Assembly (NCBI GenBank): GCA_030753015.1
Contig: JASMDC010000007.1
Span: 1-64,000 of the forward strand
DNA length: 64,000 nt
Direction: 5' to 3'
Source of the DNA: Candidatus Undinarchaeales archaeon
GTDB taxonomy: Archaea; SpSt-1190; JASMDC01
Shown: piece after piece, positions 2,508 through 59,834 of the stretch
How the letters are laid out: the number at the start of each line of letters is the position of its first letter
Position numbering within the stretch: the first letter of the stretch is position 1
Translations under genes and position numbers: made by a program
The notes under the pieces: model-generated
What the model was told of the DNA's origin: nothing
The model's input: only the letters and a program-made list of their open reading frames with translations
Database searches by the model: none

Positions 2508-4526
2508 CTAATCGAGCTTCTTCTCCTTCCAGGGAGTATCGAGCTTCTCGACCTGGCGGTGCTGGCCGGCGTCGACCTCGGACTCGGGGCCGAGGTACAT
2601 ACCGTCGTGCTCCTTGATCTCCTCGCGGATGGACTGGTGGCCTACCCTGTCGAACGGTGTGCCCTGGACGACTATGTCGTCGAGGCGGATGGCGGGCCCT
2701 GCGCACTCGTTGGGCACGCCCTGGCCACCCTTACCACAGGTACCACCGAAGCGCTCGTAGGTGTCGGCGTTGCCGATGGCGCTGATGTTCTTGAGCGCCT
2801 TGAGGGTGTTGTCCATGAGGATGGTACCCTTGATCGGCTGGTCGTACTTGATCTCGCCGTCCTCGATCTTGTAGGCCTCCTTGGGCCAGAAGGCGAAGTT
2901 GCCGTTGAGCTCGACATAGCCGCCCCAGGAGCCGGTCATGTAGATGCCGTCCTTGACGTCCTTGACCATGCCCTCGGTGTCCTCTCCCTTCTCATTGGGA
3001 AGGATCATGGTGTTGGTCATGCGGACCTGGGGCACAGCGTACCAGGCCTCGGCGCGGGCGTTCCCGGTGGACACGAACTCGCGCTTGTCGGCGGCCTCCC
3101 ACGCGCCCTGGATCTCCTGCTGCTTGGCCATGATCTTGGTCATGGCACCGGTCTGGATCTTCTGGAGCTCCTGGCCGATGGCTTCCTGGAAGCCCTCATC
3201 CTGCTGCTTGGTCATCATGTACATGGCCACTTCTTGTTCTGAGGGATCGTCGATGTTATCGTGGTCCTTCATGTAGGTCTTGGCGAAGTCCATCACGGAC
3301 TCCTGGACCTCCTTCTCGATCTCCTTGGAGAGGTCGAAGGTGGACGAGTCGAAACCCTGTTCGCGCATGAACTCGCCCTTCTGGTTGTGGCCGTAGAGGG
3401 CGGCGTCATTGTTGCCCATCAGGTAGTTGGTGAGCACGCCGTCCTTGATGATCTCGGTGCGCTGACTGGGCGTACCCTCATCATCGAACTTGTACGAGCC
3501 GCGGGCCTTGCCGGTGAGCACACCCGTCTGGAGGGCGCGGGCGTCGTCGACCACGTTGAGGCCGTCGACACCGACCTTCTCGCCGAGCTTGCCCTTGAGG
3601 ATGCGGGCGTCGTGGTGCGTGTACATGTCGGCCTCGGTCATGTGACCGAGGGCCTCGTGGATGAACACGCCGGCCATTTCGCCGTCCATGACAACGGTCG
3701 TAGCCCCGGAGGTGAACCGCTTGCCGCCGATGACCTTGAGGGCAGCATCGGCAACGTCCTTACCACGCGCGGTGGTGTCCTTCTCCGTGAGGGCCTTTGC
3801 CACGAGCTCGTAGCCACCTTCGCCGAGGCCGAAGCTGTCGAAGTTGGTGAAATCGATGGGCGTCTCGTACGCAGGGTCCTGCTTCTGTGCCGTGGCCGAG
3901 ATACCGGCGTACGGGCGCGGGATGACCTGGGTGATGTTCGAGCCGTTGGTGTCCACGAACCAGCTCTTGCGCTCGGTCTCCTTGTAGATGCCGCGGGTGT
4001 TGACGATGCCGTCCTTCATGGCAGCCGTCGAGAGCTCCTCGACGAGATCCTGCTTCTCCTTGGCGGTCACGCTGTCGAAAGGCTGGCTCGTCGGGGCCTC
4101 ATAGTGGTCCTGCACCTTCGCCTCGTTCTTGAATGCGTAGATCTTATGGGGTACGGATAGATAGACGCCCGACGCTCCGGCAGATACGAAGGCCTTGCTG
4201 ATGCTCTGGATCGAGTCACCGGACTGGAGGGTCTGCACCGCGTAGGCAGCGAGCTTCTCGAGCCCGTCCTTGGTGGTGTCCTGGGTGATGCCATAGACCT
4301 CCCAGGCCATGCCCTCCTGGTCGAAGCCCACCACGTGGGCCCGGGCACCCTTCATCATCGACTCGCCCTTGCCGTTGAGCTCTCCATCGGTCGCGATATA
4401 AGTAGAGGAGGCGTTCTCCTCGACCGTGAGGGACAGGTAGATCCCCGCCTCAGCGTACTGGTTCACGACCCCGCTCGCAATCTCTGTCTTGGGGGCCATC
4501 TCGCCGTGTACATCATACGCCATCAT
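2508..4526 (-). CDS. Enlarged TldD-type zinc metallopeptidase (copy 1)
   Basis: The 672-residue protein belongs to the TldD/PmbA (modulator of DNA gyrase) family, whose members degrade or process peptides in the cytoplasm. The metal motif is HEALGH (H290, E291, H295), and the family's third zinc ligand fits C597 in GGTCGKGGQ. Usual TldD length is about 480. The extra length comes from a helical, charged insertion at about 374-486, between the strand ending LMGNN and the stretch GNARAEAWYAVPQ, plus a tail of about 50 residues after the normal family end. ATG 4526 is followed directly by a second ATG. The TATA box at 4551-4559 would make the transcript leaderless. The adjacent copy 2 has the same architecture. 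Confidence 0.85.
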   Translation of the reverse strand: MMAYDVHGEMAPKTEIASGVVNQYAEAGIYLSLTVEENASSTYIATDGELNGKGESMMKGARAHVVGFDQEGMAWEVYGITQDTTKDGLEKLAAYAVQTLQSGDSIQSISKAFVSAGASGVYLSVPHKIYAFKNEAKVQDHYEAPTSQPFDSVTAKEKQDLVEELSTAAMKDGIVNTRGIYKETERKSWFVDTNGSNITQVIPRPYAGISATAQKQDPAYETPIDFTNFDSFGLGEGGYELVAKALTEKDTTARGKDVADAALKVIGGKRFTSGATTVVMDGEMAGVFIHEALGHMTEADMYTHHDARILKGKLGEKVGVDGLNVVDDARALQTGVLTGKARGSYKFDDEGTPSQRTEIIKDGVLTNYLMGNNDAALYGHNQKGEFMREQGFDSSTFDLSKEIEKEVQESVMDFAKTYMKDHDNIDDPSEQEVAMYMMTKQQDEGFQEAIGQELQKIQTGAMTKIMAKQQEIQGAWEAADKREFVSTGNARAEAWYAVPQVRMTNTMILPNEKGEDTEGMVKDVKDGIYMTGSWGGYVELNGNFAFWPKEAYKIEDGEIKYDQPIKGTILMDNTLKALKNISAIGNADTYERFGGTCGKGGQGVPNECAGPAIRLDDIVVQGTPFDRVGHQSIREEIKEHDGMYLGPESEVDAGQHRQVEKLDTPWKEKKLD

Positions 4527-38785: not shown

Positions 38786-38810
38786 GGTGGTGAGGTTCTA
38801 TCTCACCACC
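38786..38810 (-). terminator. Hairpin across the stop of the third TldD gene
   Basis: GGTGGTGAG (38786-38794) and CTCACCACC (38802-38810) form a perfect 9-bp stem covering the stop codon at 38803. No strong T-tract follows in the minus direction, so its terminator role is only likely. Confidence 0.45.
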
Positions 38811-40425
38811 ACAGGACGCCGTTATCGGTCACGATGTGCCGACCGAACGTCTCGCCGGACCTGCCGAAGCTTTCGAACTCGAAAGGCCGGTCGATCTTGT
38901 CCTCGGAGATGCGGGACAGGTCGGACCGGGCAAAGCCGCCCTCGCCGACGCTCATCTCGCTCACCAGCACCTCGGGGCCGACACCGCTCACCGGTGCCCA
39001 CTGCGCGGACCACCAGCCGCCCTTGCCGCAGAAGCCCACGAAGTTGTCCTCGGTGGCGTCGTCGCCCAGGGCCTCGATCTTGCCCAGGACGTCGAGCGAG
39101 TAGCCCGACACGGCCGCGGCGTCCACGGCGTACTGGATCTCGCCGTTCTCCACCCAGTAGGCCTCGGAGGCCTTGACGGCGAACTGCCCAGTGGAGGTGT
39201 AGACGTAGCCGCCGCTGGAGCCGACGATGTACAGACCGGTGCCCAGCTGAGCCAGAAGCTCCTCGTGGGTGTTCTCCCCGTTCTCCAGGATGGTGTTGCG
39301 CATCCGGGGCATGGGATCGTAGGAGCCGTCCTGGGAGCGACCGTTGCCGGTGACGCCCATGTCGATTCCCATCCGGTTCGCGAGCTCAACGGCAGTGTGC
39401 CTGTCGGTCATGAACCCGGTCACGGCGCCATTCTCCATGATGGTCAGGTCGTTGGCCTTCATCATCTCGTTGTCGTAGTAGATGTTGCCATGGCCTCCGG
39501 GGAACTGGGCTATCTCTTTGATCGTGACGAAGTCCGGCGCGATGACCTCGCCGTACTTCTGGCCCAGACGGCCGCCTTCCAGGACGGCATCTGCCTCGGC
39601 CATGTGGCCCACCATCTCGTGGATGAACACGCCGGTGACCTTGCCGCCGAACATCACGCGCACCTTCTCGCCGTCCTTGACGGGCATCTTGTGAGCGTTG
39701 TACTGGATGCGGGCCTTGTTGAGAGCGCTGTAAGCGGTGCCCTTGAGACCGTCGAGCACCAGTTCTGCGCCGGAGGTGGTGCCGATGGAGTCGAACCCGG
39801 TGACCACCGTCTCGACCTCGTTGCCCTCCTCGTCGGTGACCTTCTTGGTCAGCTCGATCTGGACCGCCAGGTGGCCGAGCATGCGCTCCTCGCACAGGTG
39901 GTTGTTCAGGTTGTCCTGGTAGTCGTCGGTGGTCTCGGTCAGGGTGTACTGCACCTTCACGGTCTTGATGTCGGGGTTGGCGGCCTTGATCTCGTCGGCG
40001 ATCTGCTTCATGTAATCCTTGACCTGCGTCTGGTACTGGTGGGGGTCCTTCTCGAACTCAGCTGCACGGTACACGGTGCCGATGGCGGGACCACGGGCGT
40101 AGATGTTGTCGAAGAACGCGTCGTCCTTGTCACCGGTGAGCCGTCCGATGGCCGAGTTGATGCCCTTCTCCACGGTGGACGCGTCGTGGCCGTAGAGCGT
40201 CTGGTAGTTCTCGGACGTGCCCCGACCGGCGAATATCTTACCGGTGGTGGCGCTTTGCGTGGTGACATCGGGCTCGTCGAACACCGGCATACCGGCGCCG
40301 ACCGCGCTCGTGGAATAGAGTATCTTCGTCTTGTTCTCGCTCTGGCGATAGACCGACAGGAAGTTGGCGTCGAAGCCGCCCAAGTCCAGCTCGTCCATCG
40401 GTCCCGTATAAAACTCTTCAAACAT
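38803..40425 (-). CDS. TldD-type metallopeptidase, divergent third copy
   Basis: The 540-residue protein carries FIHEMVGHMAEAD (H269, E270, H274) and GFCGKGGWW (C466), the same three-ligand zinc site as the tandem TldDs. It lacks their long helical insertion and has a distinct N-terminal domain. Its motif GNGRSQDGSYDPMPRMRNT corresponds to the substrate-binding segment. It has its own promoter, shared with the divergent Trm-G10 gene. No HExxxH-less TldE partner is adjacent. Confidence 0.82.
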   Translation of the reverse strand: MFEEFYTGPMDELDLGGFDANFLSVYRQSENKTKILYSTSAVGAGMPVFDEPDVTTQSATTGKIFAGRGTSENYQTLYGHDASTVEKGINSAIGRLTGDKDDAFFDNIYARGPAIGTVYRAAEFEKDPHQYQTQVKDYMKQIADEIKAANPDIKTVKVQYTLTETTDDYQDNLNNHLCEERMLGHLAVQIELTKKVTDEEGNEVETVVTGFDSIGTTSGAELVLDGLKGTAYSALNKARIQYNAHKMPVKDGEKVRVMFGGKVTGVFIHEMVGHMAEADAVLEGGRLGQKYGEVIAPDFVTIKEIAQFPGGHGNIYYDNEMMKANDLTIMENGAVTGFMTDRHTAVELANRMGIDMGVTGNGRSQDGSYDPMPRMRNTILENGENTHEELLAQLGTGLYIVGSSGGYVYTSTGQFAVKASEAYWVENGEIQYAVDAAAVSGYSLDVLGKIEALGDDATEDNFVGFCGKGGWWSAQWAPVSGVGPEVLVSEMSVGEGGFARSDLSRISEDKIDRPFEFESFGRSGETFGRHIVTDNGVLWW

Positions 40426-48920: not shown

Positions 48921-50072
48921 CTACACGAACCGCTCCGGGTGTGCTTCGAAATACTTTTCGCCCATCCGCACGAGCACGAGCCCTGATCCGAGAAGCAAGG
49001 TGAACGAGATTGCCACGGGGGCTCCGAGCATTGGCGAGTACGCAAGCGTCGCCAGGCAGGCGGACGGGACCAACGCCACCACGCTCTCGGGGAGGGGAAG
49101 CGGGGTGAGGTTGACGACGAACACCGCCGACATGGCCCCGAAGTACACGAACCGCAGCTCCTGCCGCCCGGGGACCATCGCTGCCGCCGCCAGACCCACG
49201 CCCGCCAGTAGCAGTGCCAGGGATAGCGCGTACCCGATCATGAGCACCGGATGCGCCATGTGGACGCCTTGGGTCTCGAGGAGGACGATGTACAGTACCG
49301 CCTGCGTACAGGCCAGCATCAGGGCGCCGGTCACCTTACCGCGCACCACCGTCCCAGGCGACAGGGCGTGCACCAACGGTTCCAGCTTGTGGGTCTCGGT
49401 GTCCTGGCTCAGTGCTTCCATGAGCACGTCGCCGGCGTTGATGGCCAAGAACAGGAAGATGAACGGTACCAAAAAGCCGTAGAGCGCGTGTACGGGACGC
49501 ACCGAGCGCAGCGGGGGGGCGCCGCGGTCGTCGTCGGGCGCAGGCTCGTTCACGCCCGTCACCCGTACCTGGGGCACGGCGGGCACCTCCAGCAGCAACC
49601 GCTCGAAGCCCAGGGAATAAGAGAGCTCCACCAATGCTTCCTCGAGCCGGTTCCGGGAGTAGGAGGAGAGCAGGCTGCGCGGGTCGTGGATGAGCGATAT
49701 ACCCACGTGCACCGGCCGGTCCAGCTGGTCTCCCAGTTCCGGCGGGGGCACCAGGATGACCTCGATCCGTCCCTCCATGAACGCGAACTCCGCCTGGGTG
49801 AGGCTGTCGTACCCCCGGGCGTACAGCTGCTCGCGCTCGAGAAGGGCGTTTCCAACGGATGGACGCTCGCCGTACGTCACCACGCCGATCCGCCACCCGC
49901 CCGGCGGTTCCCCGGCCTCGGACGGGAACAGGAGCGCGGCATAGTTGTGGACGATGGCCTGGGCGAACACCACCATGAGCACCTGGAAGAAGAAAAGCAC
50001 CCAGAACGTCCGGTCTCGCAGGAGGCGCTGGAGCTCGCGCCAGCCAACGAGCGCAACCGGGCCTACATCCAC
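48921..50072 (-). CDS. ABC-2 type permease (second subunit)
   Basis: The 383-residue protein begins GWRELQRLLRDRTFWVLFFF, the typical first helix of ABC-2 permeases, has a large external loop (about 50-200), then five or six membrane segments with SQDTETHKLEPLVHALSPG as coupling segment. It starts at GTG 50072, overlapping the upstream PrsW-fused permease by 10 bases. Together with that gene and the ATPase it forms a NatAB-like exporter; no substrate can be inferred. Confidence 0.8.
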   Translation of the reverse strand: MDVGPVALVGWRELQRLLRDRTFWVLFFFQVLMVVFAQAIVHNYAALLFPSEAGEPPGGWRIGVVTYGERPSVGNALLEREQLYARGYDSLTQAEFAFMEGRIEVILVPPPELGDQLDRPVHVGISLIHDPRSLLSSYSRNRLEEALVELSYSLGFERLLLEVPAVPQVRVTGVNEPAPDDDRGAPPLRSVRPVHALYGFLVPFIFLFLAINAGDVLMEALSQDTETHKLEPLVHALSPGTVVRGKVTGALMLACTQAVLYIVLLETQGVHMAHPVLMIGYALSLALLLAGVGLAAAAMVPGRQELRFVYFGAMSAVFVVNLTPLPLPESVVALVPSACLATLAYSPMLGAPVAISFTLLLGSGLVLVRMGEKYFEAHPERFV

Positions 50073-51832
50073 ATCATCACCACCGCGAGGTTGTAGGCGC
50101 CATGCAGGAGCGTGGCCACCGCCAGCGCGAGGGAGGCGCGGCCGCTACGCAGGTAGACCAGCGCGAACACCGTGGTGCACAGGCCATGGACGACCAATGA
50201 CAAGGGGAGGATGGGGAGCAGGAGCAGGGTCTCGAGGGTCTGGGCGACGCCCTCAAGACCAACGAACGGTGTGATGAAAGCGACGTTGTACAGCTTCTCG
50301 AACACCAGGAACCCCACGCCAACCGCCAGGGCCAGGGGGACCACGTCGCCCGAGTTCGAGCGCAGGCGGCCGGCGCGGTGGAGCAGGAGGAACGCAGCAC
50401 CCTTCACGGCCTCCTCCACGCCCATCAGGACCGTGACTAAGAGGATGAACGGGACGCGGACCAGGGTGGCCAAGGCCACCACCGCCACCTCGCCCGCAAG
50501 CCCCAAGAACACTGTACCGGCACCGGTGAGTATGCCCAGCAGGAGCGATGGGCGGCCGGAGGGGAGAGACTCGCGGGTGGCGAGCACCAAAGCCTCCCAC
50601 AGGGTGTGGCCCCCCGTCACCGTCCCGCGGGCGGCGCCCAGCACGCCCAGCAGCATGGCCAGTGAGAACGCGCCGGGGAAGAACAGCGACAGCCCCACCT
50701 GCTCGGCGCCCGGTGGCTCGCCTCGGAGAACGTGAAGCACGGTGGTCAGCGGCGAGTAGAACGCAACGTCGTGCACACCGGAAAGCAGGGTGGGGAGCAG
50801 CAGGCCCACCGTCCCCAGGAAGTAGGCCACTGAAAGGCTGGCCGACATGGAGGCATAGGATGAGGTGGTGACGCACACCGCCGCCGTCAGGGCGAAGAAC
50901 GTCGCAACCACCGCCGTCGTGGCCAGCACGAGGAGGGGCAGCGACGCGCGGGCGGGGGGCGCAAGGACCACAGAGAGTGTCACGGGGACCGCCACCGCCA
51001 GCAGGGCGTGGGGGGCGGCCTTCCCGGCCATGATCGAGTGCTGGGGGACGTAGGCGGAGAGCACCTCGTACCCACCGCCCAGGCGCGAGCCGGTGAGCGA
51101 CACGCCGAAGGACGAGGCGAAGAACAGTATGGGGATGAGCATGCCCAGCGGTGCCATGAGGCCCGCGATGGGGTTGGTGCCGCCCGGCTGGGGGACGGCC
51201 AGCTCCTCACCCTCCTCAATGGTATCGGGCCGTGCCAGGCGGTCGCCAAGGGCGTCGGCGGCGTAGGCCTCGCCCGGGGGCCGGGCCACCAGGAGCGATG
51301 GATCGATGGACGGCGGTGCGGGCACGCTGCCGGGGCCGGGACGTACGTTACCGCTGGGCGTCTCCTCCCGTGGTATCGGACGGAAGCCTGTCCCGCGGTC
51401 CAGCGCGTCTGCATCGATGAGGAGCGGTGCCAGGAGCACGTCAGGGAGCGGTCGCTTGGCGGCCTCCTGCTCGAACAGCCGGCGGTTGGTGACCTCGAGC
51501 ACGTCGATCATCAGCCTGCGGAGGGCACGCGACCGGTGGGACCGGCCGAACTGCGCATGCACGTCCGCGTCGTCGGTCCAGAGGTAGCCGTCGATTCGTT
51601 CCCCGAGCAGTGCCGCGTGGGCGGTATCGCGATCGGCGAGAGCCATCATCTCGATCAGCGGTGACGCGAACAGCTCGTCGGCCCGGGGATCGCCCACCCG
51701 GCCCAGCCGGTACACGTCCCGGAGCGACGGGGGCTCGCGCTCCATGCTCGTCCGCATAGCGGAGAGCACTACCAGGGAGAGCAGCGGCACCGCCAGCAGC
51801 GCCAGGGAGAGCCGACGGGAGCCGGACAGCAC
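50063..51832 (-). CDS. ABC-2 permease fused to a PrsW-like intramembrane protease
   Basis: The protein is about 589 residues from GTG 51832 (AGGA 8 bases upstream); ATA 51859 and farther positions are alternatives. The N-terminal 370 residues follow ABC-2 permease layout: first helix, large external loop, then several helices (GLMAPLGMLIPILFF). The last 150 residues have PrsW (M82) features in order: GVEEAVKGA (EExxK), GVGFLVFEKLYN, VVHGLCTTVFALVY and LLHGAYN. PrsW-type glutamate and histidine residues are all present, so it could be active. It overlaps the next permease and follows the ATPase. Confidence 0.7.
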   Translation of the reverse strand: MLSGSRRLSLALLAVPLLSLVVLSAMRTSMEREPPSLRDVYRLGRVGDPRADELFASPLIEMMALADRDTAHAALLGERIDGYLWTDDADVHAQFGRSHRSRALRRLMIDVLEVTNRRLFEQEAAKRPLPDVLLAPLLIDADALDRGTGFRPIPREETPSGNVRPGPGSVPAPPSIDPSLLVARPPGEAYAADALGDRLARPDTIEEGEELAVPQPGGTNPIAGLMAPLGMLIPILFFASSFGVSLTGSRLGGGYEVLSAYVPQHSIMAGKAAPHALLAVAVPVTLSVVLAPPARASLPLLVLATTAVVATFFALTAAVCVTTSSYASMSASLSVAYFLGTVGLLLPTLLSGVHDVAFYSPLTTVLHVLRGEPPGAEQVGLSLFFPGAFSLAMLLGVLGAARGTVTGGHTLWEALVLATRESLPSGRPSLLLGILTGAGTVFLGLAGEVAVVALATLVRVPFILLVTVLMGVEEAVKGAAFLLLHRAGRLRSNSGDVVPLALAVGVGFLVFEKLYNVAFITPFVGLEGVAQTLETLLLLPILPLSLVVHGLCTTVFALVYLRSGRASLALAVATLLHGAYNLAVVMMWM

Positions 51833-51867
51833 CCGCGCTTCCTGGCGGGACAGCTCTATAGCGCCCC

Positions 51868-52779
51868 TCAGGGCGATGGCGCGTCCACCCCCCCGATCTC
51901 GCGGAAGAACACGTCGTCGAGCCCAGGCTCCTCGACGGACACGCGGACCACCTCGCCTGACCTGGACAGGCGGCCGGTGAGCGCGGCAAAGCCCGCTGGT
52001 GTCCCCCTGTACACTACCTGCCACCGGTCCCCGGGCAGACCCTCGATCTCCAGGTCCTTGCCTGTAGGCTCCTTCCCGAGCACCTCGAGCACGTACCGCC
52101 GTTCGGCGGCCAGCGCCTCCTTGAGCACGTCCTTTGGCCCGGCGGTCACCACACGGCCCTCGTTCATGATGACCACGTCGTCGCAGAGCCGGTCGGCGTC
52201 GAGGAGGAGGTGGGTGGAAACCAGCACCGTGCGCTCGCGCTTGAGCGACAGGAGCTCCTGGTTGAGCGCTACCGAGCTGGAAGGGTCGAGGCCCGAGGCC
52301 GGTTCGTCGAGGATGAGCACCGGCGGGTCGGGGAGCAGGGTGCGCGCAAGCTCCAACCGGCGGCGCAAACCCTTGGAGAGCGCCCGGGCGGGAAGCTCGG
52401 CGTGGCCCTGCAGGCCGTACTCGCGGACCAGGTCCTCGGCACGCGCCTCCAGGTCGGTCCCGCCCATCCCAAGGAGCCGGCCGAAGAACCGCAGGTACTC
52501 CAGGGGCGCCATGTCATCGTACACATGGCTCTCCTCGGGGAGGTAGCCCATGGCCTTGCGGGCACGCTGTCGGTCGGCCCGCACGTCGGCGCCGTCCAAC
52601 AGCACCGTACCATCGTCGGGGATGAGGATGCCGCAGATGCACCGGAGGGTGGTGGTCTTGCCGGCGCCGTTGGGGCCCAGTAGCACCGTTAGCGTCCCCT
52701 CCCTCGCGGTGAGGTCCACGTCGTGGAGCACCTCCCTGTCGCCGTACGACTTGCGCAGCTTGCGCACCTCGAGCCTCAT
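51868..52779 (-). CDS. ABC transporter ATPase of the PrsW-linked exporter
   Basis: The 303-residue protein has Walker A LLGPNGAGKTTTLR, Walker B PVLILDEPASGLDP and switch histidine in VSTHLLLDADRL. The signature is LSKGLRRRLELA, with lysine replacing the second glycine of LSGG, a variation seen in some ABC-2 ATPases. GGAGGGTCGAGG precedes the ATG. A TATA box at 52816-52825 starts the three-gene operon. Confidence 0.9.
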   Translation of the reverse strand: MRLEVRKLRKSYGDREVLHDVDLTAREGTLTVLLGPNGAGKTTTLRCICGILIPDDGTVLLDGADVRADRQRARKAMGYLPEESHVYDDMAPLEYLRFFGRLLGMGGTDLEARAEDLVREYGLQGHAELPARALSKGLRRRLELARTLLPDPPVLILDEPASGLDPSSSVALNQELLSLKRERTVLVSTHLLLDADRLCDDVVIMNEGRVVTAGPKDVLKEALAAERRYVLEVLGKEPTGKDLEIEGLPGDRWQVVYRGTPAGFAALTGRLSRSGEVVRVSVEEPGLDDVFFREIGGVDAPSP

Positions 52780-53584: not shown

Positions 53585-53760
53585 GGTCGTGACCCCCTTG
53601 AGCAGCGAGCGCTTTCGTCCCGTCAGTTCCACCAGAAAGGACGACACTGGGGCGGTTGAAAAACACGGTGTTAGGGGTGATAGTGAGGGCGCTCACACCG
53701 CGCGAGTACCGGCACGCCGGCCTGCCGGCTTTCTTGACCCATGAGCGGCTAATCTCTACC

Positions 53761-54426
53761 ATGGCGCTTCCATGGGAGCACGGGGCCCGGCAGCCGTTCC
53801 TGGACCGGACCGATCCCTCCGATGTCCGCCGGGAGGCAGTGGCGCTTCCCCTGGCGCCCGGCCGGGTCACCGTGCTCCGACCCACCTCCTTCCCCGTGTC
53901 CCTGGCCCTGGCCAGGGCGGCGCTCGCGCCCGGGGGGGAGGTGCGGGCCGTTGTGGTCGACGGCGGTAACCGCTTCGATCCATCAGCCCTGGCGCGATGG
54001 GCACAGCACCTGGGCGCGCCGCCGCGGAGGGTGCTGGAGGCCGTGGCCGTGTCCCGGGCGTTCACCTGCCACCAGCTGGCCCGGCTCGTGACCGAAAGGC
54101 TGCCCCGGGAGCTGGCGGTCACCGGGGCGCGGCTGGTGGCGGTGCTGTCGCTGACCAGCTCGTTCACCGACGTGCCCGCACGGGAGGGCGTCGCCCTCTT
54201 CCGCCGCACCCTGGACGCCCTCGCCCGGGCGGTGCGTTACGCGAACGCCGCGTGCCTGGTCACCCTGGACCGGGAGCCCGAGGGGTACCTGGAACGACTG
54301 GCCCGGCGGCGTGCCGTGGCGTGCGCCGAACTGCTCCCGGGGCTGCGGCTCCAGCTGGAGGGAGGGCCTGCGGTGCCGCTGGGGGCGACACCCGCCCCCT
54401 TTCCCTGGGCTGTGGGTGGTGCCTGA
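53761..54426 (+). CDS. RecA/RadA-like protein without Walker A (PolB2-linked)
   Basis: The 221-residue protein keeps parts of the RecA/Rad51 core: VTVLRPTSFP where Walker A should be, VRAVVVDGGNRFDPSALARW, and AVSRAFTCHQLARLVTERLP, matching the Rad51 stretch ending ARAFT..HQ..LL. The phosphate-binding GKT is absent, so ATP hydrolysis is unlikely. ATG 53761 is chosen because codons before it lack the gene's GC-rich third positions. It is followed at once by a small helical gene and a PolB2-like polymerase. Confidence 0.72.
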   Translation: MALPWEHGARQPFLDRTDPSDVRREAVALPLAPGRVTVLRPTSFPVSLALARAALAPGGEVRAVVVDGGNRFDPSALARWAQHLGAPPRRVLEAVAVSRAFTCHQLARLVTERLPRELAVTGARLVAVLSLTSSFTDVPAREGVALFRRTLDALARAVRYANAACLVTLDREPEGYLERLARRRAVACAELLPGLRLQLEGGPAVPLGATPAPFPWAVGGA

Positions 54427-54427
54427 C

Positions 54428-54706
54428 ATGGGCCGGACCGTGGCCACGTTCCGCCACCTGCTGGCAATCGAGGAGTCGCGCTGGCGCCCCTTCCGCGACG
54501 GGCTGCGGCGACGGGACCGGGAGGCCTTCGACCGGCTGTTCGACCTGGCCCGGGGCCACGCCGCTGCTGCCACCATGGCGGCCAGCCCGCTCGCCATGGA
54601 GCCGGTGGTGCTGGCGGTGCTCCTGGAGCACCAGAAGGCGCTCGAGCGGCTGACCGCGCGGCTGGCGGAGGTGGACGAGGGTGAGGGGGACCGGCTGGGT
54701 CCTTGA
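54428..54706 (+). CDS. Small helical protein of the PolB2 cassette
   Basis: The 92-residue all-helical protein (ESRWRPFRDGLRRRDREAFD, then RLFDLARGHAAAATMAA and VVLAVLLEHQKALERL) sits 1 base after the RecA-like gene and overlaps the polymerase by 26 bases. Small helical proteins accompany archaeal PolB2 genes in other lineages as I recall; likely roles are adaptor or DNA-bridging. No catalytic motif seen. Confidence 0.72.
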   Translation: MGRTVATFRHLLAIEESRWRPFRDGLRRRDREAFDRLFDLARGHAAAATMAASPLAMEPVVLAVLLEHQKALERLTARLAEVDEGEGDRLGP

Positions 54707-56795
54707 CATCCACGCCGACGGGGGCGAGGTCGCCCTCTGGGTGAAGCGCGAGCGGGGCGGTACCGTCCGCCTCGCAGCATCCTACCGTCCTCCCTTCTAC
54801 GTGCTCCCGCGGACGCAGTCCCTGGACCGGCTCCTTCCCCGCCTGCGCCAGCTCCCCGGGGTGGGCCGGGTGACGACGGCACGGCGCTCGGACGTGTGGA
54901 CCGGAAGTGAGGCCGCAGTGGCCGAGGTCCATCCCGCCGATCCGGCACGGATGAAGGCGACGGCGGCCCGGGTCCGCGACGACGTGGGGACGGCGGGAGA
55001 GGTGTGCACCTGCGACGTGGCGCACGAGACGCGGTTCCTCATCGAGCGGGGGCTGTTCCCCCTGGCCAGGGTGCGCTTTGCGGCCGACGACGACGGGCGG
55101 TTGCGTGACGTGGCGCTCGACGGCGACGCTGCCGATGCCATGGAGTACCCGGTGCCCCGTCTTGAGGTCGTGGAGGTGTCCCGTGGTAGGAGCGCACGGG
55201 CGGCCTGCATCGGCCGGGACCCGGACGTGGTGATCACCCGGGGACCCTGCGCCGACCTCCATCTGGTGTCCCGTGAGCCCGTGGAGGCCGTGCGACGGCG
55301 CGCGCGTTCCTACGTCTCCTACGGACGAGTGGTGTACAAGCCGCCGTTCCAGCACCTGCACGGCCGCTGGCACGTTGATGGCGACCATTCCTTCTTCGTG
55401 CGCCGGTGCGGGCTGGAGGGGCTCATCGAGCTCTCCCGGCTCTCCTGCATCACCCCCCAGCGCATGGCTCATACCTCGCCGGGCACGGCCATCAGCGCCA
55501 TGGAGGTGGCCACGGCGCTGCGGCACGGGATGCTGGTGCCCTGGCGCAAGGGCGAGCCCGAGGCGTTCAAGACCGCCTGGCAGCTGGTGCAGGCCGACCG
55601 GGGTGGCCTGGTGCTGGAGCCGGTGCCGGGCGCCGTGGAGCAGGTGGCGGAGATGGACTTCGCCTCCATGTACCCCACCATCATGGACCACCACAACATC
55701 TCGCCCGAGACCGTCCAGTGCACGTGCTGCGGGGACGACGGTAGTGCGACGGTGCCCGTGCTGGGCTACCATCTGTGCAGCAAGCGGCGCGGACTGGTGC
55801 CCGAGACCATCGCACCGCTCTTGGAGCGGCGGCGGCACTACAAGCGACGAGCGCGGGCCACGCGCGGTGCGATGCGCGTGGGGTACGAGCGGCGGCAGCA
55901 GGCGCTCAAGTGGATGCTGGTGACGTGCTTCGGGTACCTGGGCTACCGCAACGCCCGTTTCGGCCGGATCGAGGCACACGAGTCGGTGACCGCCTTCGGC
56001 CGGGACAAGCTCGTGCGCGCGGCGCGCATGGCCGAGGAGGCGGGCTTCGCGGTGGTGCACGGCATAGTGGACTGCCTGTGGCTGCGGCACGAGGATGGGG
56101 ACACCCTCGCGGGGCGGGAGGACGAGCTCGCCGACCTCATGTCGTCCATCGGCAGCGCAGTGGACGTGGAGCTGGAGCTGGAGGGGGTGTACGGGTGGCT
56201 GGCCTTCTCCCCCTCGCGCCTCCACCCCGGGGTCGCGGCGGCCAACCGCTACTTCGGCAGGTACGTCACCGGAGAGCTCAAGGTACGTGGGATCGAGTCG
56301 CGACGCAGGGACGCGCCGGGTGTGGTGCGCCGGCTCCAGGCACGTATCCTGGGCATCCTTGCTGGCTGCCCCGACCTTGCCGCGGTGCGCGACTCCCTGC
56401 CCGGTGCCGTGGAGGTGGTGCGCCTGGCCGTGGACGGGGTGCGGGCCGGTGACGTCCGGTCCGATGAGCTGGAGGTGTGCACGGTAGTGTCCCGCTCCGA
56501 CTACCGCGGCCGCTCGCCGACGGCGGTCGTGGCCACGGCACTGCGCGACGAGGGCGTCGAGCTCCTCCCCGGCCAGAAGGTGCGGTACGTGTGGGGTGCC
56601 GAGGGCCGGCCCGTGCCCGCGAGCGAGGCCGACGGGTACGCCCACGACCGGTACACTGAGCTTCTAATCAGGAGCGCGGGGACCCTTTTAGCGCCCTTCG
56701 GGCTCCCTGCCGAGGCGCTCGCCCGGCGCCTGGCCCCCGGCGGCCATCAGCTTACCCTTGCCGCGTGCGTCGCGCGCAGAAGACGGGCGCGGTGA
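54681..56795 (+). CDS. Family B DNA polymerase, PolB2 (Dpo2)-like
   Basis: The 704-residue protein starts at GTG 54681 with GGAGGTG 8 bases upstream. Motif A is present as MDFASMYPTIMDHHNISPET. Motif B is altered, KWMLVTCFGYLGY instead of Kx3NSxYG. Motif C reads HGIVDCLWL instead of YxDTDS: the first aspartate is lost, but the second, metal-binding one remains. Exonuclease motifs are not visible in the short N-terminal part (about 320 residues). This is the pattern of archaeal PolB2, tied to damage tolerance in Crenarchaeota. Residual activity is uncertain. Confidence 0.82.
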   Translation: MRGTGWVLDIHADGGEVALWVKRERGGTVRLAASYRPPFYVLPRTQSLDRLLPRLRQLPGVGRVTTARRSDVWTGSEAAVAEVHPADPARMKATAARVRDDVGTAGEVCTCDVAHETRFLIERGLFPLARVRFAADDDGRLRDVALDGDAADAMEYPVPRLEVVEVSRGRSARAACIGRDPDVVITRGPCADLHLVSREPVEAVRRRARSYVSYGRVVYKPPFQHLHGRWHVDGDHSFFVRRCGLEGLIELSRLSCITPQRMAHTSPGTAISAMEVATALRHGMLVPWRKGEPEAFKTAWQLVQADRGGLVLEPVPGAVEQVAEMDFASMYPTIMDHHNISPETVQCTCCGDDGSATVPVLGYHLCSKRRGLVPETIAPLLERRRHYKRRARATRGAMRVGYERRQQALKWMLVTCFGYLGYRNARFGRIEAHESVTAFGRDKLVRAARMAEEAGFAVVHGIVDCLWLRHEDGDTLAGREDELADLMSSIGSAVDVELELEGVYGWLAFSPSRLHPGVAAANRYFGRYVTGELKVRGIESRRRDAPGVVRRLQARILGILAGCPDLAAVRDSLPGAVEVVRLAVDGVRAGDVRSDELEVCTVVSRSDYRGRSPTAVVATALRDEGVELLPGQKVRYVWGAEGRPVPASEADGYAHDRYTELLIRSAGTLLAPFGLPAEALARRLAPGGHQLTLAACVARRRRAR

Positions 56796-56807
56796 GCACT
56801 TGTAATG

Positions 56808-57290
56808 TCAGGCACGTATATATGCTATCCACACCATGACCCTTCTGAGGAAAATGGCAAACACGCCTCCCGGGGGGACGACAAAGGATGGGTCTCTCGT
56901 TTTTTTTCTGACCATCCTTGGCTGCCACCACCGCCCCCCGGGCCTCTTTCTCCCTTAACTTCTATCGGAAAGATGCCTTCGGAAGGTATTTATGCTATAC
57001 ACGACTAAATAGTATGGGGGGAATGATGGTCATTCTTCCCCCGGGGGACGGGATGGAAGGTTCACCTAATAATAGAATAATAGCACTTCTTAGTCTTCCT
57101 TTGGCTGCCACCTCCGCCCCCCGGCACTATTCTCCCCGTTCCTGATCCGAAAGGTAAATAGGCCATCCACACCTGATTAAGGACCGGGGGGAACGGGAAC
57201 CCAGTTCCTATGCTCTCCTGGGGGGCGGGATGGGGAAGTGCTGCCTATTTCTGTTTACGCTTTCTCGCTGCCACCCCCGCTCCCCGAACC
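56808..57290. repeat. Three tandem hairpin units of about 170 bp
   Basis: Each unit has a TATA-like AT-rich start (near 56817, 56989 and 57155), a G-rich arm containing GGGGG(A)C-GGGATGG-like sequence, and a distal GCTGCCACC-C-CG arm (56921, 57104, 57267). The arms pair: CCCGGGGGG 56869-56877 with CCCCCCGGG 56934-56942 and AAGGATGG with CCATCCTT in unit 1; CCGGGGG with CCCCCCGG and GGAAG with CTTCC in unit 2; GGGGGGC with GCTCCCC in unit 3. Unit 2 has an extra hairpin at 57016-57042. Apical loops are AT-rich (T8 in unit 1). No coding frame fits. They could be small RNA genes or protein-binding arrays. Confidence 0.6.
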
Positions 57291-57314
57291 TTCCCTGACC
57301 CAGAAGAACATGCA

Positions 57315-58451
57315 CTAGGCACGTTCATCGAGCAGGTCGGCGGCGGCCTCGAGGTCGAGCACGCGGTACTCGATTGTGAGGCTCTGCCAGGGGCGGAGGA
57401 CGTTGCTCGCTGCCTCGTGGCCCGAGGAAAGGAGCACCTCCTTGATCTCGTCGTTGGACAGTCCGTTGTACTGGGACTTGATGGCCGCCACGGCACCCGC
57501 CACCAGGGGTGCGGACATGGACGTGCCCGTCCATGTCGTGTAGCCGCCGGGGACCGGGGAGAGGATGTCCACGCCGGGCGCGACGATGTCGAAACCGAGG
57601 TTCGTGGAATTGTACAGGCGGTCCTTGTCCTCCCATGATGCGCCCGCGGTGAACACGTCGGGGCAGGAGCCGGGCGACGTCCTGCTGAGACCAGTCGCCG
57701 GATCGGCCGTCTCCCGGGCGTTGCCGGCGGACGCCACGAGGAACACTCCCGCGTCGTACACACGTGAGCATGCCTCGTTGATGAGGCGGTCCACTTCGGC
57801 CTTGGGCCGTCCCTCGAAGTCCTCTGCGGTCTCCATGCCGAAGGACATGTTGACTACGTCCATCCCGTCCGCCACGGCCTTGTCGAGTCCGCGCAGTGCG
57901 ACCGAGAACCCGTCATCGCCTTTGCCCGTGACGACCTTGTAGCTGTACAGCTCGGCCTCGGGCGCGATGGTGTGGACGATACCGGCGACGTGCGTGCCGT
58001 GGCCGTGGTCGTCGTACGGGTCGGGTTTGTCGTAGACGAGGTCGGTGAACCCGCGGTAGGCGTCGATGAGGTAGGGGTGGGACGCGTCGATGCCCATGTC
58101 GAGGATGCCCACCTTCACACCTTCACCGGTGAGCCCCCGGGCGTTCGCCTCGGCGGCGTGCACACGCCGGTAGCCCCAACCCTGGGCCACGTCCTGTGGT
58201 CCGACGCCAGTGGCGAGCTCGTAGGGCCGGTCGCTGTGCGTGATGGTGATCGCGCGTTCGTCACCGTAACAGGTGATGACCCCAGCTGTCCGGAGGTCGG
58301 CGAGCTCCCTGGCATCGGCATCCATAACGAGTGCGGCGTTCAGTGACGTGTACGCCTCCTCGACGGCGAGACCATGGGACGCGAGATCGTACGCGCCATG
58401 ACCCTGCTCCAAGAACACGACAGTGCGCTCGACACCTGCAAGCTCCACCAT
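57315..58451 (-). CDS. Subtilisin-like serine protease (copy 2), probably cytoplasmic
   Basis: The 378-residue protein has the catalytic triad motifs VGILDMGIDASH, DDHGHGTHVAGI and GTSMSAPLVAG, with SAGNARETAD for the oxyanion region. Residues 1-75 form a propeptide-like domain (ERTVVFLEQGHGAYDLASHG, then ALVMDADARELADL). No signal peptide is present, so it either acts inside the cell or leaves by another route. The TATA box lies at 58472-58482; the start is leaderless. It is the tandem partner of the next subtilase. Confidence 0.9.
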   Translation of the reverse strand: MVELAGVERTVVFLEQGHGAYDLASHGLAVEEAYTSLNAALVMDADARELADLRTAGVITCYGDERAITITHSDRPYELATGVGPQDVAQGWGYRRVHAAEANARGLTGEGVKVGILDMGIDASHPYLIDAYRGFTDLVYDKPDPYDDHGHGTHVAGIVHTIAPEAELYSYKVVTGKGDDGFSVALRGLDKAVADGMDVVNMSFGMETAEDFEGRPKAEVDRLINEACSRVYDAGVFLVASAGNARETADPATGLSRTSPGSCPDVFTAGASWEDKDRLYNSTNLGFDIVAPGVDILSPVPGGYTTWTGTSMSAPLVAGAVAAIKSQYNGLSNDEIKEVLLSSGHEAASNVLRPWQSLTIEYRVLDLEAAADLLDERA

Positions 58452-58521: not shown

Positions 58522-59706
58522 TTACTCGGTGTCCTCGAGCAGGTCGGCTGCCGCCTCGAGGTTGAGCACCTTGTACTCCTGGAGACCGTGGTAGTAGGTG
58601 TTGTGGCTAGCGTCGTCGGCCGAGGCGATGAGCGCGTCCTTGATCTCGTCGTTGGACAGGTCGCTGTACTTGGATTTGACGGCCGCAACGGCACCCACCA
58701 CGAACGGGCAGGCCATGGACGTGCCGTCCCATGTTGCGTACCTGTCCCCGGGGATCGAGGAGAGGACCCGCGCACCGGGTGCCGAGATGTCGAACCCGAG
58801 GTTTGTGAAGTACGCCAGCTTGTCGTTGTACTTGCTCATGGCGCCTACAGCGAAGACGTCCGGCCCCGACGCGGGAGCGGACCTGCTGCGGCCGGAGGCC
58901 GGGTCGGCGGCCTGGCCGTCGTTGCCGGCAGCCGCCACGAGGAACACGCCCGAGTCGTACGCACGCGAGCAGGCCTCGTTGAGTATGCGGTCGCCTTCCT
59001 CCTTGGAGTATCCCTCGCGTTCCTCGTCGGTGTCCAGACCGAAGGACATGTTCACCACGTCCATACCGTCCTGTACTATGGTGTCCAGGCCGCGGAGGAT
59101 GTCCGAGATGCGGTTGGCGCCATGCGACATATGGAGCTTGTAGCCGTACAGCTCCACCTTGGGAGCGACGGTCTTGACGATCCCGCCGCAGTGGGTGCCG
59201 TGACCGTGGTCATCGTACGGATCGGGCTTGCCGTAGGGCAGGTCGGTGAACCCGGCGTAGTTGTCCTTGAGGTACTCGTGGTCCGCGTCGATGCCGGTGT
59301 CGAAGATGGCGACCTTGACACCAGCGCCGTCCAGACCCTTGGTGTTGGCCTGGGCCGAGCGCACCCGGAGGTAACCCCAGTCGTTGGGGACGTCGCGTGC
59401 CTCGGGCTGATCGCCGGTGTCGTACGGATCAGGGGAGATGCTGCCGGGGCCGTGTGTTCCCTTGTTGTACGGACCGCGGGTCTCGTCGGAGATGGTCACC
59501 TCATGGTCCTCGGCGTAGTCCGAGACCACACCCACCAGCTGCAGCGTGGCCAGCTCCCGCGCGTCAGCTCCGGTCACTATCGCAGCGCCCAGACCGGCGT
59601 AGGACTCTTCCACCTGTATGCCGTAGGACTCGAGCTCCTCGGTGGCGTTGCCGCCGTAGGACCTGTCGAAGAAAACGATCGTACGCTCACTGCTCTCAAT
59701 ATCCAT
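58522..59706 (-). CDS. Subtilisin-like serine protease (copy 1), probably cytoplasmic
   Basis: The 394-residue protein has VAIFDTGIDADH, DDHGHGTHCGGI and GTSMACPFVVG as triad motifs, with AAAGNDGQAAD at the oxyanion site and a propeptide-like first 90 residues. It is clearly related to the neighbouring subtilase. Start ATG 59706 fits a TATA box at 59762-59771; an earlier in-frame ATG at 59787 is upstream of that box. No signal peptide is seen. The gap to copy 2 is only 70 bases. Confidence 0.9.
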   Translation of the reverse strand: MDIESSERTIVFFDRSYGGNATEELESYGIQVEESYAGLGAAIVTGADARELATLQLVGVVSDYAEDHEVTISDETRGPYNKGTHGPGSISPDPYDTGDQPEARDVPNDWGYLRVRSAQANTKGLDGAGVKVAIFDTGIDADHEYLKDNYAGFTDLPYGKPDPYDDHGHGTHCGGIVKTVAPKVELYGYKLHMSHGANRISDILRGLDTIVQDGMDVVNMSFGLDTDEEREGYSKEEGDRILNEACSRAYDSGVFLVAAAGNDGQAADPASGRSRSAPASGPDVFAVGAMSKYNDKLAYFTNLGFDISAPGARVLSSIPGDRYATWDGTSMACPFVVGAVAAVKSKYSDLSNDEIKDALIASADDASHNTYYHGLQEYKVLNLEAAADLLEDTE

Positions 59707-59761
59707 CCCGTACACCCATGGGGACCACTGTCCCCTCAAGTGATATCTAGCGGGGTCGCCG

Positions 59762-59771
59762 GAATATAAAC
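59762..59771 (-). promoter_or_regulatory. TATA box of the upstream subtilase
   Basis: The minus strand reads GGTTTATATT, about 60 bases upstream of ATG 59706; the leader would be about 35 bases. Confidence 0.5.
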
Positions 59772-59834
59772 CTTCGGTCTTCGGCAAGTGGAGGACTCGC
59801 GGCCGGACCGGTCGCGAGGCAAAACTTCAGTGAA

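Follow-up and report, generated by a model that had tools for sequence, protein, structure and literature searches.

The cassette studied here consists of three open reading frames (ORFs) on the forward strand, each read in a different frame, within a 64-kb stretch of archaeal DNA (hereafter the window). The genes carry below the names of the protein families to which we assign them.

53761–54426, + strand: iRadA gene, ORF of 221 aa, ATG start (predicted)
54428–54706, + strand: PPB2 gene, ORF of 92 aa, ATG start
54681–56795, + strand: PolB2 gene, ORF of 704 aa, GTG start
54681–54706, + strand: overlap of the PPB2 3′ end and the PolB2 5′ end, 26 nt

A single nucleotide (base 54427) separates iRadA from PPB2, and the ORF coordinates agree with the 1-base gap and 26-base overlap that were described in the first-pass annotation of this DNA. 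Translational coupling is likely at the PPB2/PolB2 overlap, and the sequence GGAGGTG is found 5′ of the PolB2 GTG start. The coding signal is strong in all three ORFs, with codon-position GC of 0.82/0.58/0.87 in iRadA, 0.82/0.51/0.91 in PPB2 and 0.75/0.52/0.89 in PolB2. An in-frame upstream TTG at 53656 is a second start candidate for iRadA, giving a protein of 256 aa; the homologues agree better with the ATG at 53761, which is our predicted start. An antisense ORF of 802 aa (54237–56645, − strand) that runs across the polymerase gene was rejected as an artefact of high GC and high GC3. Two sigma-70-type promoter matches upstream of the operon were also set aside, since that model is not applicable to archaea, and an Rfam scan of the 64-kb window gave no match.

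The neighbors recognised around the operon are ABC transporter genes upstream and two subtilases downstream, and no lexA, orc1/cdc6, SRAP or DUF72 gene was recognised adjoining it; damage regulation thus finds no support in the context. The upstream genes (48921–52779, − strand) encode an ABC transporter ATPase and two membrane proteins. By eye, ORF 50063–52024 looks like an ABC-2 permease-like part fused to another membrane part, and it has no Pfam match. The adjoining subtilase (Peptidase_S8) genes (57315–58451 and 58522–59787, both − strand) probably represent a tandem duplication. The polB2 and subtilase genes converge, and between their ends there are three imperfect tandem copies of a noncoding unit of ~170 bp (56810–57314), with the blocks GTAxxTAxGCxATxCACxxC and GCTGCCACCnCCGCxCCCCG. 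This unit folds mildly better than its shuffles (z −2.3 to −1.2), and a search of the rest of the genome gave no other copy. The window also encodes two TldD/PmbA-type metalloprotease-like proteins at separate sites (2508–4526 and 38803–40425, both − strand).

The partner proteins iRadA and PPB2

The first protein matches the Pfam Rad51 family at 1.4e-5, above the family cut-off, and a PDB search with a profile of 44 homologues, all of them operon-linked, hits archaeal RadA at 2e-13. Its AlphaFold2 model has a pLDDT above 90 over the core (residues ~60–170). A Foldseek search with this model gives a best RadA match with an E-value of 1.8e-10 and a probability of 1.00, and the top 50 matches are all RadA/Rad51-family structures. 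The GK[ST] of Walker A is absent from the protein, and a Walker A consensus is missing from all 44 homologues (0/44). Walker B reads VLSLTSSF here, compared with IVDSLTSHF in RadA, such that the Asp is replaced. Five other residues (R99, F101, T102, Q105, and D137) are invariant across the 44 homologues. The N-terminal helical domain of RadA is missing from this 221 aa protein, whose homology starts in the ATPase core. By sequence and model structure the first protein is iRadA, a RadA/Rad51 homologue that lacks the ATPase residues. The first-pass annotation had proposed a RecA fold without Walker A and had let its reading of the cassette stand or fall with that fold; a RecA/RadA fold is what was found.

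The second protein, which had been noted as a small protein of 92 residues, begins with MGRTVATFR. The published signature of PPB2 is MGRT, and this part was modelled in the cleft between PolB2 and iRadA (PMC11791011). BLAST identity is 33–51% to the genes that precede PolB2 in bacterial and Thermoplasmatota loci, and an N-terminus of the type MGR[TSN] is conserved among these relatives. An alignment of 35 PPB2 sequences, drawn from operons of bacteria and archaea, has G2 and L26 in every sequence, and M1, R3, W19, D30, P56, E58 and L65 in nearly all. Searches of Pfam and NCBIfam gave no family above its cut-off. Standing outside all curated families, the protein matches the published description of arCOG07300 as a small alpha-helical protein that resembles no other protein significantly (PMC4104785). 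On these sequence features, it is PPB2, of the arCOG07300 type and predicted to be helical.

Motifs, fold and placement of the polymerase

The third protein matches Pfam DNA_pol_B at 9e-26 and NCBIfam NF004416 at 9.6e-120, the latter yet below the cut-off of the model. Four motifs can be located in it:

55587–55613, + strand: D(K/R) motif VQADRGGLV, residues 303–311, preceding motif A; D306 is invariant
55656–55682, + strand: motif A DFASMYPTI, residues 326–334
55908–55937, + strand: motif B KWMLVTCFGY, residues 410–419, in the PolB2 spelling
56058–56084, + strand: motif C HGIVDCLWL, residues 460–468, with the first Asp changed to Ile and the second kept

The D(K/R) loop is the one that was modelled as contacting PPB2 (PMC11791011). 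In the aligned PolB2 sequences motif B starts with KW and has no NS, whereas replicative PolB have KxxxNSxYG. The K...NSxYG form is present in the PolB of the class-mates and in the second PolB of the same genome, an 825 aa, exonuclease-positive protein with a DTD motif on contig C32. It was found that D326 of motif A and D464 of motif C are invariant in 39 aligned sequences, so that both metal-binding Asp residues are retained; H460 of the HxxxD motif C is invariant as well. The reading of a family B polymerase with IVD in place of DTD and the second Asp kept was thus correct.

The first-pass annotation had also seen no exonuclease. In an alignment that is approximate, since this region is divergent, the ExoI, ExoII and ExoIII residues are missing at the positions aligned to FDIET, YNGDQFD and EDTD of the second PolB. 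The AlphaFold2 model of PolB2 (pLDDT 91.6) finds KOD and 9N polymerases in Foldseek at 1.6e-39, with intact palm and fingers. Because the model aligns along nearly the whole length of these polymerases, a decayed exonuclease-domain fold without catalytic residues is probably retained, rather than the domain being cleanly deleted.

A 56-row tree places the polymerase within PolB2 with support of 100/100, and the DTD polymerase of the same genome and the PolB of the class-mates are outside. Grouping with PolB1/PolB3, on which the earlier reading would also have turned, was not seen: the polymerase groups with PolB2, apart from the replicative-type PolB. As the RadA fold is present and the polymerase groups in this way, the PolB2/Dpo2 likeness that had been pointed out is actual membership and not mere resemblance.

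Within PolB2, the protein joins the bacterial clade, weakly (92/75) in the rooted 56-row tree and strongly (100/98.6) in a second, unrooted tree of 31 rows, which rejects a grouping with Thermoplasmatota (AU p = 0.006). This placement is suggestive only, because the branch is long, the composition is unusual, and PolB2 of Thermoproteota, Asgard archaea and halophiles were left out of the trees. The simple view that the best relatives of the operon are bacterial was corrected by a search of Thermoplasmatota, in which 183 of the 390 sampled genomes have a match, the best reaching 48–50% over the polymerase domain.

The host genome contains an archaeal EF-2 that scores far above its curated cut-off; a search of the same genome for an archaeal 16S gave no match. 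This EF-2 is about equally distant (52–56%) from those of Thermoplasmatota, Archaeoglobi, methanogens and its own class-mates, which, with only ten genomes of the phylum available for comparison, indicates a deep and undersampled lineage. Across the ten phylum genomes compared, the others are 0.6–1.1 Mb in size and have one PolB match each, and the five class-mate PolB in the tree are outside PolB2 and have DxD motifs. Since the single PolB of the class-mates, where examined, is not PolB2, the operon is patchily distributed in the lineage, as is usual for PolB2.

Interpretation of the cassette

Of 109 related PolB2 loci, at least 60 have iRadA, PPB2 and PolB2 in the same order and orientation, and a PPB2-like gene was found in 76, when partners were sought on the same strand by BLAST with the proteins of this locus. 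The count of 60 is a lower bound because many loci end at truncated contigs and iRadA diverges fast, and linkage on this scale excludes a chance arrangement. Based on the three protein identities and the conserved linkage in the 109 loci, the cassette is very probably a PolB2 mutasome operon, which encodes an exonuclease-dead but predicted catalytically competent PolB2, PPB2 and an ATPase-dead iRadA. Makarova et al. 2014 (PMC4104785) predicted such an operon, and Timinskas et al. 2025 (PMC11791011) modelled its products as a heteropentamer. The protein identities, the operon geometry, the iRadA and PolB2 folds and the pattern of lost and retained motifs are shown directly at this locus.

One question that the placement of the polymerase raises is whether the contig came from a bacterium and was wrongly binned with an archaeon, with an operon that is simply of the bacterial G2 type. 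The genome is 98.9% complete, its listed bin contamination is 5.01%, and PolB2 branches with the bacterial clade. However, archaeal models are the best match for other genes of this contig, namely a TIGR01177 methyltransferase (5.4e-77), GdhA_Arch (1.3e-128), GdhB_Halo (2.5e-133) and Arch TldD (1.8e-58). In addition, HGIVD is the archaeal spelling of motif C, whereas HAITD, HAIVD and HGLTD are common in bacteria, and the polymerase stays outside the bacterial PolB2, which form their own clade without it (100/97 in the 56-row tree). On this evidence contamination seems quite improbable.

We consider it very improbable that PolB2 is a dead relic with a structural or regulatory role, for example in replication initiation. 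Sulfolobus Dpo2, which has the same substitution in motif C (IID), matches the replicase in nucleotide incorporation (PMC8764526), and here the two catalytic Asp are invariant and the palm and fingers are intact. These points weigh against the change of the first DTD Asp to Ile and the loss of the exonuclease residues, and against the earlier literature in which PolB2 was regarded as inactivated, with a role in replication regulation or origin recognition (PMC4104785). A replicative PolB1 or PolB3 with a chance motif change beside an unrelated RadA-like gene would belong to the same Pfam family, but has next to no chance given the 100/100 PolB2 clade that leaves the DTD, exonuclease-positive polymerase of the genome outside, the PolB2-specific spellings of motifs B, C and D(K/R), and the conserved linkage.

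For the PolB2 mutasome operon, we infer complex formation, damage induction, extender activity and mutagenesis at this locus from the published systems. According to the published model (PMC11791011), a trimer of PPB2 would assemble with single copies of PolB2 and iRadA into a heteropentamer. PolB2 would bind iRadA by mimicking the motif with which RadA oligomerises, and one of the three PPB2 would place its MGRT arm in the PolB2–iRadA cleft, close to the DNA. By analogy with Sulfolobus, DNA damage would induce the complex, which may extend mismatched or lesion-opposed primer ends where the replicative polymerase has stalled; more cells would then survive, but with more mutations. Retention of the second Asp speaks for an active polymerase, as in the active Sulfolobus Dpo2 (PMC8764526), and the enzyme may be error-prone.

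Comparison with known systems and significance

The locus resembles the published PolB2 mutasome (PMC11791011; PMC4104785) in its families, in the order iRadA-PPB2-PolB2 and in orientation, as well as in the MGRT arm, the D(K/R) loop, the HxxxD motif C, the inactive RadA and the loss of the exonuclease. It differs in that its host belongs to a sparsely sampled archaeal phylum, that no orc1/cdc6 or lexA neighbor was recognised, that PolB2 joins the bacterial clade, and that a clamp-binding motif is not recognised. Both iRadA and PolB2 were scanned for such a motif, and the C-terminus of PolB2, HQLTLAACVARRRRAR, holds no recognisable one. According to a published survey, clamp motifs occur in only part of the PolB2 systems (PMC11791011).

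The bacterial G2 (PolB2) operons, for example the Thermodesulfobacteriota and Ignavibacteriota loci L003, L010 and L009, have the three genes in the same order, a PolB2 with 34–41% identity and a PPB2 with MGRT, but differ in the bacterial spelling of motif C and in that some PolB2 have beta-clamp-like C-termini (QQELF, QHALF). The Thermoplasmatota operons (for example L115, L118 and L039) also share the three genes and their order, with up to 50% identity over the polymerase domain. Most iRadA of Thermoplasmatota end in a PIP-like QTTLDEF/Y (L117, L118, L120, L123, L127, L128, L130, L132, L134, L135, and L143), unlike the iRadA found here; this ending is consistent with PCNA binding through iRadA in those archaea.

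A biochemical comparison, made by description and not by alignment, is with Dpo2 of Sulfolobus islandicus (PMC8764526; PMC7390963), which likewise has Ile for the first Asp of motif C (IID there, IVD here) and no exonuclease catalytic residues. It was shown to be an active, exonuclease-free extender of mismatches and lesion-opposed termini, with high fidelity on undamaged DNA, and a poor inserter but good extender (PMC8764526). It was also described as the damage-induced source of targeted mutagenesis (PMC7390963). Sulfolobus differs in having the Y-family Dpo4 as well, whereas a search for the Y-family domain (IMS, PF00817) found none in the 98.9%-complete genome studied here, with matches in 11 of 14 genomes in the control search.

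The first-pass annotation had drawn a parallel with the bacterial ImuA-ImuB-DnaE2 mutasome. This parallel stands as a functional analogy, as does that with Pol V (UmuD'2C-RecA): each shares the idea of translesion synthesis by a polymerase with RecA-like and small partners, and Pol V (UmuD'2-UmuC-RecA) is the published parallel of the PolB2 mutasome. Membership does not hold, since the polymerases of those systems are of families C and Y and the one here is of family B. DnaE2 itself is a C-family enzyme, and no part of its system is present, nor is there a Y-family IMS match genome-wide.

A further proposal is that the operon of this deep lineage is, among known archaeal PolB2 operons, the closest relative of the one that bacteria acquired (or was itself regained from bacteria). 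In this proposal, having no Y-family polymerase, the lineage would depend on the PolB2 mutasome both to insert opposite lesions and to extend, and would do so with no tether to the sliding clamp of the usual kind. We regard this as rather unlikely.

The PolB2 mutasome is already described, and the main value of this locus is that it offers a further, diverged example from an undersampled archaeal phylum. It strengthens the case that the three genes form a conserved module, and it is a further candidate for a position near the point where PolB2 passed from archaea to bacteria. Should the genome truly lack a Y-family polymerase, the lineage would test whether the PolB2 mutasome alone does the whole of lesion bypass, because the Sulfolobus Dpo2 inserts poorly and extends well (PMC8764526).
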